Source: Peptococcaceae bacterium BRH_c8a
GTDB taxonomy: Bacteria; Bacillota; Desulfotomaculia; Desulfotomaculales; Desulfallaceae
Assembly (NCBI GenBank): GCA_000961575.1
Contig: LADP01000006.1
Span: 1 to 64,000, forward strand
Length of the DNA: 64,000 bases
Direction of reading: 5' to 3'
Made by a program: the position numbers and the translations under genes. How positions within the stretch are numbered: the first letter of the stretch is position 1; every line of letters starts with the position of its first letter. Of the stretch, positions 31,416 through 38,507 are shown piece by piece. The notes under the pieces were generated by a model. The model saw only the letters and a list, made by a program, of their open reading frames with translations. It ran no database searches and was not told the origin of the DNA.

Positions 31416-31652
31416 ATGACACACAAAAAAGACAACGATGCACTTCGAACCCAAAATCAAATGGATAAATTAAAATGGGAAACAGCCAAGGAGTTTGGTT
31501 TAGATGACGACCTGACAAGTGGTGGCGATGAATTAACCGTTCGCGAGGCCGGAAAGATCGGCGGTAATATGACCAAAAAACTAGTGCAGGCCGGGGAAAA
31601 GGCGTTAGCGGAGGAAGGGGATCGCAAGACCCGTTTAAACTTGCAAAAGTAA
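31416..31652 (+). CDS. Alpha/beta-type small acid-soluble spore protein
   Basis: The 78-residue protein has the GPR protease cleavage region KWETAKEFGL and the DNA-binding motif VREAGKIGGNMTKKLVQAGEKAL. Such proteins coat spore DNA and protect it from UV and heat. It is diagnostic of an endospore former. GAGGTGAATTAACC precedes the ATG. The C-terminus is longer and more charged than in Bacillus SspA/B. Confidence 0.93.
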   Translation: MTHKKDNDALRTQNQMDKLKWETAKEFGLDDDLTSGGDELTVREAGKIGGNMTKKLVQAGEKALAEEGDRKTRLNLQK

Positions 31653-34588: not shown

Positions 34589-34864
34589 TTGTCCAAAGAA
34601 TTTTTAAACGCGTTAAAGTATTCAGTAATTCAGGATTTACCGGAATTTGCGGGTATCACTAATGAGCAACAATACCGGAGCAAACTGGAAAACTTTAAAT
34701 ATGAAGTGGCCCAGGAAACAGGGATACCCCTGCAGGATGGCTACAACGGGAATTTAAAATCTCGGGAAGCAGGGGTAATTGGGGGGCATATCGGCGGTAA
34801 GATCGGTGGTCATATGGTTAGGGAAATGATTCGCGCCTACGAAGCTTCATTAGTTAAAGCATAA
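34589..34864 (+). CDS. Alpha/beta-type small acid-soluble spore protein, divergent
   Basis: The 91-residue protein has the spore-protein cleavage text FKYEVAQETGIPL and the glycine-rich DNA motif SREAGVIGGHIGGKIGGHMVREMI. The N-terminal 45 residues are unlike standard SASPs. TTG at 34589 follows GGAGGTGATTTA. It is transcribed toward the structured RNA region that begins 40 bp later. Confidence 0.88.
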   Translation: MSKEFLNALKYSVIQDLPEFAGITNEQQYRSKLENFKYEVAQETGIPLQDGYNGNLKSREAGVIGGHIGGKIGGHMVREMIRAYEASLVKA

Positions 34865-34867
34865 TAA

Positions 34868-34895
34868 TTAAAAACTAAACATTGCCAATTATAAT
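34868..34895 (+). promoter_or_regulatory. Putative sigma-A promoter of the structured RNA
   Basis: TTAAAA (34868-34873) and TATAAT (34890-34895) are separated by 16 bp. A start near 34902 would begin just before the first hairpin at 34908. Confidence 0.45.
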
Positions 34896-34901
34896 TCTCG
34901 A

Positions 34902-35381
34902 CAAAGTGGCCATAATAGTATCACAAGGTTCGTGATGGCCGAGCCAAGACCGCTACAGGGTCGTAAGGCTCTGTAGTGGTCGGCCAAAGGTTAATACAGG
35001 GTCTCACAAGGCTCTGTATTAGCCGGCGGGCAGATCGGTAAGTGTTCTGGTAGGCTGTACTGCAGTCCGAACGATTGCAGTATGGTCACAAGGGATGCTT
35101 ATCGGTCGAGCTAAGATTATTATGGGTATCGATAAAATTTAACAAACTTAACATGGTTCCGGTATGTTTATTGTTAAGTCATTGGGTTTGCAGCAGTCGA
35201 GAGATTGTTGCAGGCTCATAAGATATCCATAATAGTCGAGCAAAGATCATTATGGGTGTCGTAATGGTCTATAGCAGCCGAAAGGTTGTTGTAGGCTACG
35301 TAGATACGCATAGTGGTTGTAGCGTAGGTCATTACGGGCTTTATCTACACCGAAACCCTCTTCCATGCGGAAGAGGGTTTC
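34902..35381 (+). ncRNA. Candidate large structured RNA, about 480 nt
   Basis: Hairpin follows hairpin without any supported ORF. Stems: 34948-34958/34971-34981 and 34989-34999/35014-35024 (11 bp each, sibling loops GGT...AAGGCT), 35058-35064/35076-35082, 35189-35198/35203-35212 with GAGA tetraloop, and 35270-35279/35284-35293 with GAAA tetraloop. A long-range 16-bp helix 35115-35130/35222-35237 encloses an 91-nt domain. Many arms are kept by G-U pairs, as expected for RNA. Units GAGCNAAGA and GGGTNTCG repeat, suggesting internal duplication. It ends at a 13-bp hairpin. I cannot assign it to a known class. Confidence 0.65.
35352..35381 (+). terminator. 3' hairpin of the structured RNA
   Basis: GAAACCCTCTTCC pairs with GGAAGAGGGTTTC over loop ATGC, a perfect 13-bp stem. 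The following ATAATTATTG is AT-rich rather than a T-run. Confidence 0.7.
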
Positions 35382-35482
35382 ATAATTATTGCTAATGGAA
35401 ACACCTTTATAAAAATTTCCATATTCACCTGGTATGTTATAATCTAAATAGCTAATTTACTAACAACCGGGGATGAGTAACT

Positions 35483-36322
35483 ATGGAATTAGCGTCATCC
35501 AAGAAAATATTGCTTCAACTATATCAACAAACCCAGAAAAACGAAGTGTCTGCTACGGGGGCACAACTGAGCTACTACTTTATAATTTCTATATTTCCTT
35601 TTTTCATTTTCCTTTTGACCCTGCTGGACTACACACCATTGACCGACCAGAATACATTACAGCAATTAGCGGAACTTTTACCGGAAACGGTCTTTGCAGT
35701 AGTGGAACAAATTGTTTTAGAAATTACCAGGGCTAATAATGCTTCCCTGCTGTCCTTTGGTATTCTGGGCACTATTTGGACTGCTTCAAGAGGTACCTAC
35801 GCCTTAATCCGCAGTATCAACAAGGCTTATGAAACGATTGAAAGCCGATCCTTCTTAAAGTTAAACATGATTGGCATAACAGCCACTTTCGCCTTGGCCT
35901 TGGCCATAATGTTTTCCCTGGGGTTGATGGTATTTGGGAAAATAATCGGCACTGCGGTTTTTCAGAGCCTGGGGATGGAAACATTATTCTTTTATCTGTG
36001 GTCTTATCTACGCTACCTTATTCCCTTTATGTTAATATTTTTAATTTTTTCCCTGCTTTATCTTTTCGCTCCCAGCCTTCCGCTTCGTTTTAGAGACGTC
36101 TACCCCGGTGCGGTATTTGCCACCCTGGGCTGGATTGTTTCGTCCCAGCTTTTCGCCTATTACGTTAACAACTTTGGCAATTTTTTCAGTACTTATGGCA
36201 GTCTGGGCGGTATTATTGTTTTTTTGGTGTGGCTTTACATTAGCAGCGTGGTCATATTACTGGGCGGCGAAATTAATGCTGCTTTGTTTAATAGTACTAA
36301 AAATAGAAACCATTTTTTTTAA
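35483..36322 (+). CDS. YihY/BrkB-family membrane protein
   Basis: The 279-residue protein has about six membrane segments and the family signatures ATGAQLSYYFIISIFPFFIFLL and GTIWTASRGTYALIRSINKAYE, with the late segment GGIIVFLVWLYISSVVILLGGEINA. The family was once called ribonuclease BN in error; its transport role is unknown. GGGGATGAGTAACT precedes the ATG at 35483. It follows the structured RNA by about 100 bp. Confidence 0.9.
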   Translation: MELASSKKILLQLYQQTQKNEVSATGAQLSYYFIISIFPFFIFLLTLLDYTPLTDQNTLQQLAELLPETVFAVVEQIVLEITRANNASLLSFGILGTIWTASRGTYALIRSINKAYETIESRSFLKLNMIGITATFALALAIMFSLGLMVFGKIIGTAVFQSLGMETLFFYLWSYLRYLIPFMLIFLIFSLLYLFAPSLPLRFRDVYPGAVFATLGWIVSSQLFAYYVNNFGNFFSTYGSLGGIIVFLVWLYISSVVILLGGEINAALFNSTKNRNHFF

Positions 36323-37670: not shown

Positions 37671-37786
37671 TGGCATTTAAAATCTATATTTTAAATACTT
37701 TTATTTGGCCAAGTGTCAAAATTTATTAGTTGGAATATATTGCTAGCGTAGCTAGTATTTACCTTGGAGAAAAGGAGGAAAGCAAT

Positions 37787-37984
37787 TTGGGTATTCCAGA
37801 CAAATTAAATTTTGCGACTGGTGTAACAGTAAATATCCTCATGGAAGATGGCACTGTATTTACAGGTGAGCTAATCGATGCGGTAAGAGACTTCTTACTG
37901 GTGAGACTCACGGCAGCATCAGGGCCGTATGTAGCAGCACAAGTAATTAGGCTAGACATGGATAACATTTTGGCTATTGGCTAA
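37787..37984 (+). CDS. Sm-like small protein, copy 1 of 3
   Basis: The 65-residue protein starts GIPDKLNFATGVTVNILMED after a TTG codon eight nt from AAAGGAGG, matching the start of copy 3 exactly. The body is beta-rich (VFTGELIDAVRDFLLVRLTA...VAAQVIRLDMDNILAIG), in the pattern of Sm/Hfq or SH3-like five-strand barrels: an NILMxDGxVFTGE strand pair and a C-terminal strand. No family name is recognised. It shares about half of its residues with copy 3 and the same length. Confidence 0.75.
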   Translation: MGIPDKLNFATGVTVNILMEDGTVFTGELIDAVRDFLLVRLTAASGPYVAAQVIRLDMDNILAIG

Positions 37985-38019
37985 CTAATATTTTTACTTT
38001 ATAAGAAGAGGAGGATGCC

Positions 38020-38271
38020 ATGTTAATACCTCCCGAACTATTTTTCCCACCAGGTGTAAGAGTAGTTATTACGATGAACAACGGTCAGGTTTTTAGCGGA
38101 GAAATGATTGGAATGGAAACCAGCTTTATACTACCGGATGGCAGTGTTATTTCAGGTATCGCGGAACCGGTTAAAAAGCTCCTGATGGTGAGACTTTTGG
38201 AACCATCGGCACCATATGTAGCCTCACAAATTGTTAGACTGGATATCGATAGCATTTTGGCCATCGGTTAA
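38020..38271 (+). CDS. Sm-like small protein, copy 2 of 3 (with insertion)
   Basis: The 83-residue copy begins MLIPPELFFPPGVRVVITMN and ends PYVASQIVRLDIDSILAIG. It has about 18 extra residues in the middle (LPDGSVISGIAEPVKKLLMV), between strands conserved in the other copies. GAGGAGGATGCC precedes the ATG. Copies 1, 2 and 3 are separated by 35-40 bp and run in one direction, so they form an operon. Confidence 0.75.
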   Translation: MLIPPELFFPPGVRVVITMNNGQVFSGEMIGMETSFILPDGSVISGIAEPVKKLLMVRLLEPSAPYVASQIVRLDIDSILAIG

Positions 38272-38309
38272 TTAGCTGAAAACTAATTTGAAAGGAGCGA
38301 TGTTAGGTC

Positions 38310-38507
38310 ATGTCAATTCCCCCCGAGCTAAATTTTGCAACTGGTGTAACTGTAAACATCCTTATGATTAACGGCGACGTGTTTACAGGCGAAATTGTTG
38401 ATGTGGAAGATAATTTTCTGCAGCTTAGACTTACTGCTGCTACCGGTCCCTTCGTTGCGGGAGAAGTAGTCCGGCTAAACCTTAAACAACTTATCGCGAT
38501 AGGTTAA
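38310..38507 (+). CDS. Sm-like small protein, copy 3 of 3
   Basis: The 65-residue copy begins MSIPPELNFATGVTVNILMI and ends VVRLNLKQLIAIG. It aligns end to end with copy 1. GAAAGGAGCGATGTTAGGTC precedes the ATG. A 13-bp terminator hairpin follows seven bp after the stop. No Cys or membrane segment is present in any copy. Confidence 0.78.
   Translation: MSIPPELNFATGVTVNILMINGDVFTGEIVDVEDNFLQLRLTAATGPFVAGEVVRLNLKQLIAIG

Follow-up and report, generated by a model that had tools for sequence, protein, structure and literature searches.

What occupies the gap between a spore-protein gene and a YihY-family gene in Peptococcaceae bacterium BRH_c8a, and what might it do? We looked at this gap within a stretch of 64,000 nucleotides of contig LADP01000006.1, which was analysed as a whole and is called the window below. 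From the letters alone, an initial annotation had placed a structured RNA there, starting at 34888, preceded by a TATAAT box and followed by a hairpin. The gap and its borders contain the following features.

34589-34864: alpha/beta-type SASP gene (Pfam PF00269), flanking the RNA gap
34889-34895, plus strand: -35-like element of the forespore type with an ATA core at 34891-34893, overlapping the TATAAT
34911-34917, plus strand: -10-like element CATAATA
34926-35341, plus strand: core of a structured, six-armed RNA, delimited by fold, covariation and homologues
35352-35381, plus strand: terminator-like hairpin of 13 bp with a loop of 4
35483-36322: YihY-family gene, flanking the gap on the other side

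The stretch 34890-35385 was predicted to fold at -246.8 kcal/mol (z -19.9), and none of 100 dinucleotide shuffles folded as low (mean -136.6, sd 5.5). No ORF of at least 50 aa with an ATG, GTG or TTG start overlapped 34890-35380 on either strand, and a protein-coding or small-ORF reading of the gap was therefore dropped. The fold, the homologues and the covariation confirm that the gap holds a structured RNA; its start had been set too early, since the RNA proper begins near 34918-34926, and with its terminator it extends to 35381. The hairpin noticed after the RNA is indeed terminator-like and separates it from the YihY gene. Inspected by eye, similarly placed terminator-like hairpins are also found downstream of other copies. 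Elsewhere in the window, a second alpha/beta-type SASP gene (PF00269) is located at 31416-31652 on the plus strand, about 3 kb upstream of the RNA, and positions 37730-38507 of the same strand encode three tandem look-alike small proteins of 84, 83 and 65 aa with no Pfam match at E 0.01.

Copies of the RNA were compared in two samples, one of 113 Desulfotomaculales genomes (hereafter, the order) and one of 398 Bacillota genomes (the phylum). In the deduced structure, a six-way junction is closed by P1 and carries the arms P2, P3, P4/P5, P6/P7 and P8/P9, given here with the share of their pairs that show changes on both sides.

34926-34940, plus strand: 5' strand of P1, pairing with 35327-35341; 99.6% of cells paired, both-sided changes in 9 of 15 pairs
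34948-34981, plus strand: P2 hairpin arm; 12 of 15 pairs
34989-35024, plus strand: P3 hairpin arm, a sibling of P2; 11 of 15 pairs
35033-35107, plus strand: long arm P4 plus P5 with an internal loop between them; 15 of 16 and 12 of 17 pairs
35110-35241, plus strand: long arm P6 (with a 3-bp linker extension) plus P7; 14 of 19 and 11 of 16 pairs
35245-35318, plus strand: long arm P8 plus P9; 11 of 15 and 10 of 15 pairs
35327-35341, plus strand: 3' strand of P1

Several elements of the initial annotation can be recognized in this structure. Its sibling hairpins are P2 and P3, and its two stems with GNRA caps are P7 (35183-35218), closed by GAGA in the window and in 51 of 65 copies, and P9 (35265-35298), closed by GAAA, which was found in 60 of 65. 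The loops of P2 and P3 vary among copies, unlike those of P7 and P9, and this difference may be a sign of tertiary contacts made through P7 and P9. The long-range helix described as 16 bp corresponds to P1 and has that length in the single fold, whereas the family consensus retains 15 bp; the second long helix besides P1 is P6. A variable insert (35131-35182) is present within the P6/P7 arm.

All six arms, P1 included, proved to be versions of one module when read outward from the junction. Their identity within a molecule is 54%, against 27% (sd 0.3%) when the order of the pairs is shuffled, and models of the 5' domain and the 3' domain cross-match weakly. Recurring units had been reported, and were found again, with GAGCNAAGA at 34941, 35108 and 35238 and GGGTNTCG at 35124 and 35254. 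Among the six linkers, GAGCNAA predominates in three, and the remaining ones are looser variants. The identity of the arms and the cross-match support the growth by duplication already proposed in the initial annotation. The arms also have their wobble pairs in common: at bp 3, 12 and 14, a wobble is present in 0.80, 0.85 and 0.86 of the arm-copies of the order, and in at most 0.34 elsewhere in the arm. In other families, the corresponding values are 0.76, 0.86 and 0.69, with at most 0.30 elsewhere. Since bp 3 and bp 14 are 11 bp apart, that is, one turn of an A-form helix, their wobbles should face the same way. The distal stems P5, P7 and P9 carry two conserved wobbles, one pair apart, at the end next to the internal loop.

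Covariation in related genomes argues for the same structure. In an alignment of 65 full-length order copies, standard pairs make up 97.6% of 9515 cells. Both-sided changes occur in 105 of 148 pairs, as compared to 65.2 (sd 3.7) in shuffles and 37-58 with a slid partner. This alignment leaves out duplicates, the partial copies L005, L053, L054, L063, L073 and L074, and L017, which contains the same copies as L067. When the structure was transferred unchanged, via the window copy alone, to 41 of the 48 copies from other families, 94.8% of 6136 cells were paired (window copy included) and 124 of 148 pairs showed both-sided changes (shuffles 86.4, sd 3.7; slid partner 67-87). Left out here were L115, L117, L120, L121, L136, L150 and L153, with L150 and L153 among the most divergent copies from other families. 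With all 48 copies, a different alignment and the window structure, the value was again 94.8%, of 7084 cells, the lowest copy being L150 at 84.8%. The same six arms were recovered by RNAalifold on 113 sequences, and a copy from another family (L147) folds into six arms on its own, with z -15.2. At the linkers, an additional GCC:GGC helix suggested by the folding (34983-34985 with 35029-35031) was dropped from the structure, being paired in 81.6% of cases in the order and 61.1% in other families; a 2-bp GC:GC linker, paired in 97.7% and 88.0%, varies on one side only. The compensatory changes, together with the same wobble pairs kept across families, are in line with the earlier preference for RNA function over DNA palindromes. 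The locus thus has the long intergenic RNA and the extensive covariation that define the broad kind called large ornate structured RNAs.

How far does this RNA extend beyond the window? By blastn, a second full copy was found in the same genome, with 95% identity over 463 nt, and matches were obtained in 45 of 60 genomes, the genome of the window included, with at most 4 full-length copies per genome. A third match in the window's own genome (L005, contig C36) retains only a 42-nt match to the model. Among copies less than 93% identical (55 in all), 54 were used to build the 3'-domain model R1 and 52 to build R2; the broader model R3 was built from 56 matches. R1 detected the RNA in 85 of 113 order genomes and 166 of 398 phylum genomes, the latter spread over 69 families, and R3 in 87 and 175, respectively. 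All 38 loci examined from 27 other families contain the 3' domain; a clear 5' domain precedes it on that strand in 37 of them and a weak one in L145. From end to end, 48 copies from other families span 363-432 nt. When a contig collection was scanned with a pattern, 20 contigs matched, including Carboxydocella thermautotrophica, three species of Desulfofundulus, Pelotomaculum terephthalicicum and Desulforadius tongensis. We take Pelotomaculum thermopropionicum, Desulforudis audaxviator, Desulfallas gibsoniae, Desulfofarcimen acetoxidans, Natranaerobius thermophilus and Acetohalobium arabaticum to be among the positives as well. The conserved motif is also present in contig L183, whose label, as given, is that of an Armatimonadetes MAG.

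Where the architecture changes, it does so by whole units. In L054 (3543-3838), the P6/P7 arm is missing and the other five are kept in a five-arm fold with z -9.3; P2 and P3 are merged in L052, and P5 is missing from L070 and L071. In all four, arms or distal stems were lost as units and the junction was retained. In the window's genus, the two paralogues of a genome (L001/L004 and L006/L035) share 97.6% and 98.5% identity, against 94.7% and 95.2% for orthologues. These paralogues are closer than the orthologues although the flanks just outside differ, indicating concerted evolution of the RNA body. In the rest of the family, most paralogues cluster with copies from other genomes. In one locus (L067, on contig C8 of G014), two full tandem copies are separated by about 500 nt, and both have a terminator-like hairpin of their own.

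To what class would such an RNA belong? Covariance models of Rfam 15 gave no match at gathering score in the whole window, and only four weak ones, the best with E 0.14, in a relaxed search of 34800-35480; at E up to 0.5, none of the 20 loci searched, out of the 38 from other families, gave a match. A known family was rejected on this basis, within Rfam 15, and the earlier failure to match the RNA to a class such as OLE, raiA or ROOL thus holds for the window and these 20 loci. No description of a six-armed RNA, nor any RNA of such kind for Carboxydocella, Pelotomaculum or relatives of Desulfotomaculum, was found in the literature searched; it may have been listed elsewhere. Term searches in PMC11109978, PMC8632094 and PMC2864571 found none of the queried host genera named there. 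Judged from sequence and its conservation, the locus is almost certainly an RNA gene of a class that is not in Rfam 15, and with its length of about 400 nt, it seems to represent a large and widespread class that has yet to be named.

We then asked what kind of promoter could drive its transcription. Upstream of copies inside and outside the order, we observed a shared pattern consisting of ATA, 17 nt and CATAATA, without a TTGACA-like box; G usually occupies the second and third positions ahead of CATAATA. A CATNNTA with at least 4 of its 5 letters was found in 63 of 65 order copies (shuffles: mean 26.6, maximum 39) and in 29 of 37 copies from other families (mean 11.6, maximum 21); as the -10 site was picked as the best CATNNTA match, its letters are partly given by construction and the shuffles serve as control. 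The -35 ATA was not part of the site selection, and it occurs exactly at -20 to -18 in 39 of these 63 copies of the order (4.3% in shuffles) and in 13 of the 29 from other families (4.8% in shuffles). The consensus form for sigma-G is GHATR/CATNNTA.

A matrix made from the order copies was also applied to upstream regions of SASP genes, chosen by a crude protein pattern in 28 of the 30 loci fetched; 27 were scored, one of the loci (L216) being probably in the wrong frame. The 95th percentile of shuffled SASP upstreams was exceeded by 23 of 37 RNA copies from other families and by 9 of 27 SASP upstreams, where about 1.4 were expected; the other 18 were below it. A scan of the window's own genome with the promoter pattern was weak, with 18 matches against 12 in the reversed control, and included two genes clearly of the forespore type, YtfJ and an S11 peptidase like DacF. 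The TATAAT box of the initial annotation is present at 34890 as part of a sigma-70-like TTAAAA-TATAAT (34868-34895, 10 of 12 matches) that overlaps the forespore-type motif; what the family has in common is instead CATAATA at 34911-34917. These comparisons support a forespore-type promoter as the putative one that fits the family better than TATAAT does. Excerpts of PMC7438776 describe promiscuity between the forespore sigmas, with SASP genes and spoVT in the overlap.

Is the RNA linked to sporulation? SpoIVA is encoded in 336 of the 398 phylum genomes, and R1 matched 161 of these, as compared to 5 of the 62 genomes without SpoIVA (Fisher p 3.9e-10, kinship ignored); put the other way, 161 of 166 R1-positive genomes have SpoIVA (kinship uncorrected). 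The five exceptions are G188, G230, G341, G387 and G434, three of which are 61-80% complete. In the order, 104 of 113 genomes have SpoIVA and seven of the nine others have no RNA either; the remaining two, G064 and G103, carry it and are 84 and 64% complete. Only two order genomes without SpoIVA are at least 90% complete (G065 and G068); both are without the RNA, which was found in 7 of 7 (f5) and 5 of 6 (f3) other members of their families. On the other hand, 175 of 336 SpoIVA-positive phylum genomes (R1) and 19 of 104 in the order (R3) gave no RNA match, meaning that sporulation does not need the RNA.

The neighbouring genes were also looked at. In at least 15 genomes from five order families, the RNA is 0.81-0.98 kb from a SpoIVA domain, which suggests that this was the ancestral site. 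In some clades it lies beside genes for SpoVT, a Germane-domain protein, SpoVB, SpoVR (one locus), SpoIVA or SASPs, and it also adjoins genes without a spore role, such as upp. Because synteny is shared, independent cases are few; outside the order, moreover, the neighbours are by eye mostly not recognizable spore genes, and the neighbourhood was rejected as a general proof. Altogether, the promoter motif, the co-occurrence and the synteny make it likely that the RNA belongs to the forespore programme.

An alternative is a general RNA of vegetative cells, serving as a scaffold or in stability and transcribed by sigma-A from TTAAAA-TATAAT, whose bias towards sporulators would come from shared ancestry only. 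The score of the sigma-70-like site, the many sporulating genomes without the RNA and the variable neighbours are in its favour, but the promoter shared by the family is of another form, the same matrix also picks up some of the SASP upstreams in related genomes, and the RNA is missing from the two SpoIVA-negative order genomes that are nearly complete. We consider this reading unlikely. A role in sequestration seems quite improbable to us: as in the functionally parallel 6S and CsrB/C RNAs, nine similar stems would titrate a double-strand RNA-binding regulator or nuclease, with no particle being scaffolded. Near-identical modules with fixed wobble pairs would suit such a role, whereas a mere sponge needs neither a closed junction nor an arm order that stays fixed over many families, and the loss of arms or stems is limited to few fully aligned copies (L052, L070, L071) and the partial L054.

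A cis-acting, riboswitch-like leader or a mobile or palindromic DNA element is very hard to reconcile with the data, and these readings are refuted in the main. In other families, no more than 10 of 46 downstream genes share the strand of the RNA, indicating that the RNA is a free-standing gene, and this orientation together with the RNA's own terminator led us to reject a riboswitch. Several dispersed copies in some genomes could point to a mobile element. However, the window copy had no blastn match among 72,556 records of plasmids and 50,697 of phages, viral contigs gave no match to one RNA pattern, and the gap is free of ORFs of at least 50 aa, so that a mobile element was rejected as well; compensatory pairs with conserved G-U argue against palindromic DNA.

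What remains to be explained is the use of the six arms. We give an even chance to a scaffold RNA that is expressed in the forespore and docks a protein or further RNA on its repeated arms. The RNA would be transcribed in the forespore from its sigma-F/G-type promoter, ended by its own terminator, and would fold into a rigid pinwheel of six module arms. The equivalent, wobble-marked faces and the GNRA tips could then serve for docking, with several molecules of a single protein or further molecules of the RNA itself as partners, and the resulting particle might be used while the spore is built or dormant. The scaffold, docking and particle roles are inferred from anatomy, which a scaffold fits best. 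OLE, ROOL and GOLLD form RNA-only homo-oligomers according to excerpts of PMC12286853, and since other large ornate RNAs do so, self-assembly would be a reasonable reading here too. More tentatively, and as less likely than not, we propose an endospore RNA common to the phylum, a pseudo-sixfold forespore pinwheel whose wobble-marked faces, spaced by one turn, would let it join with further copies or with a repeated protein to build a particle of the dormant spore. Few large structured RNAs of unknown function would be as widespread as this one, which occurs in 69 families of the phylum sample yet has no entry in Rfam 15. Its six near-repeats, with wobbles in a fixed register, suggest how a large RNA may grow by duplication and still keep one fold, and expression in the forespore, if real, would make it an RNA component of endospore formation that can be tested directly.

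How does it compare with known RNAs? OLE, ROOL, GOLLD and raiA are Rfam families, and the raiA motif (ModT RNA) and CsfG are each about 200 nt long. Like OLE, ROOL and GOLLD, as they are portrayed in excerpts of PMC12286853, the RNA of the window is long and highly structured, with conserved pairing and no coding role. Unlike them, it has no covariance-model match and, at about 400 nt, consists of one closed six-way junction with near-repeat arms and a wobble code; it is absent from the phage and plasmid collections searched and has a putative promoter of the forespore type. With the raiA motif, it shares being a structured RNA conserved across many Bacillota (PMC11706538, in part), and it differs from it by the lack of an Rfam match and by another length and architecture. 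Finally, CsfG is described in part of PMC12456014 as a sporulation-specific small RNA of Bacillus, and sporulation-specific expression, if confirmed for the RNA of the window, would be a trait that the two have in common.
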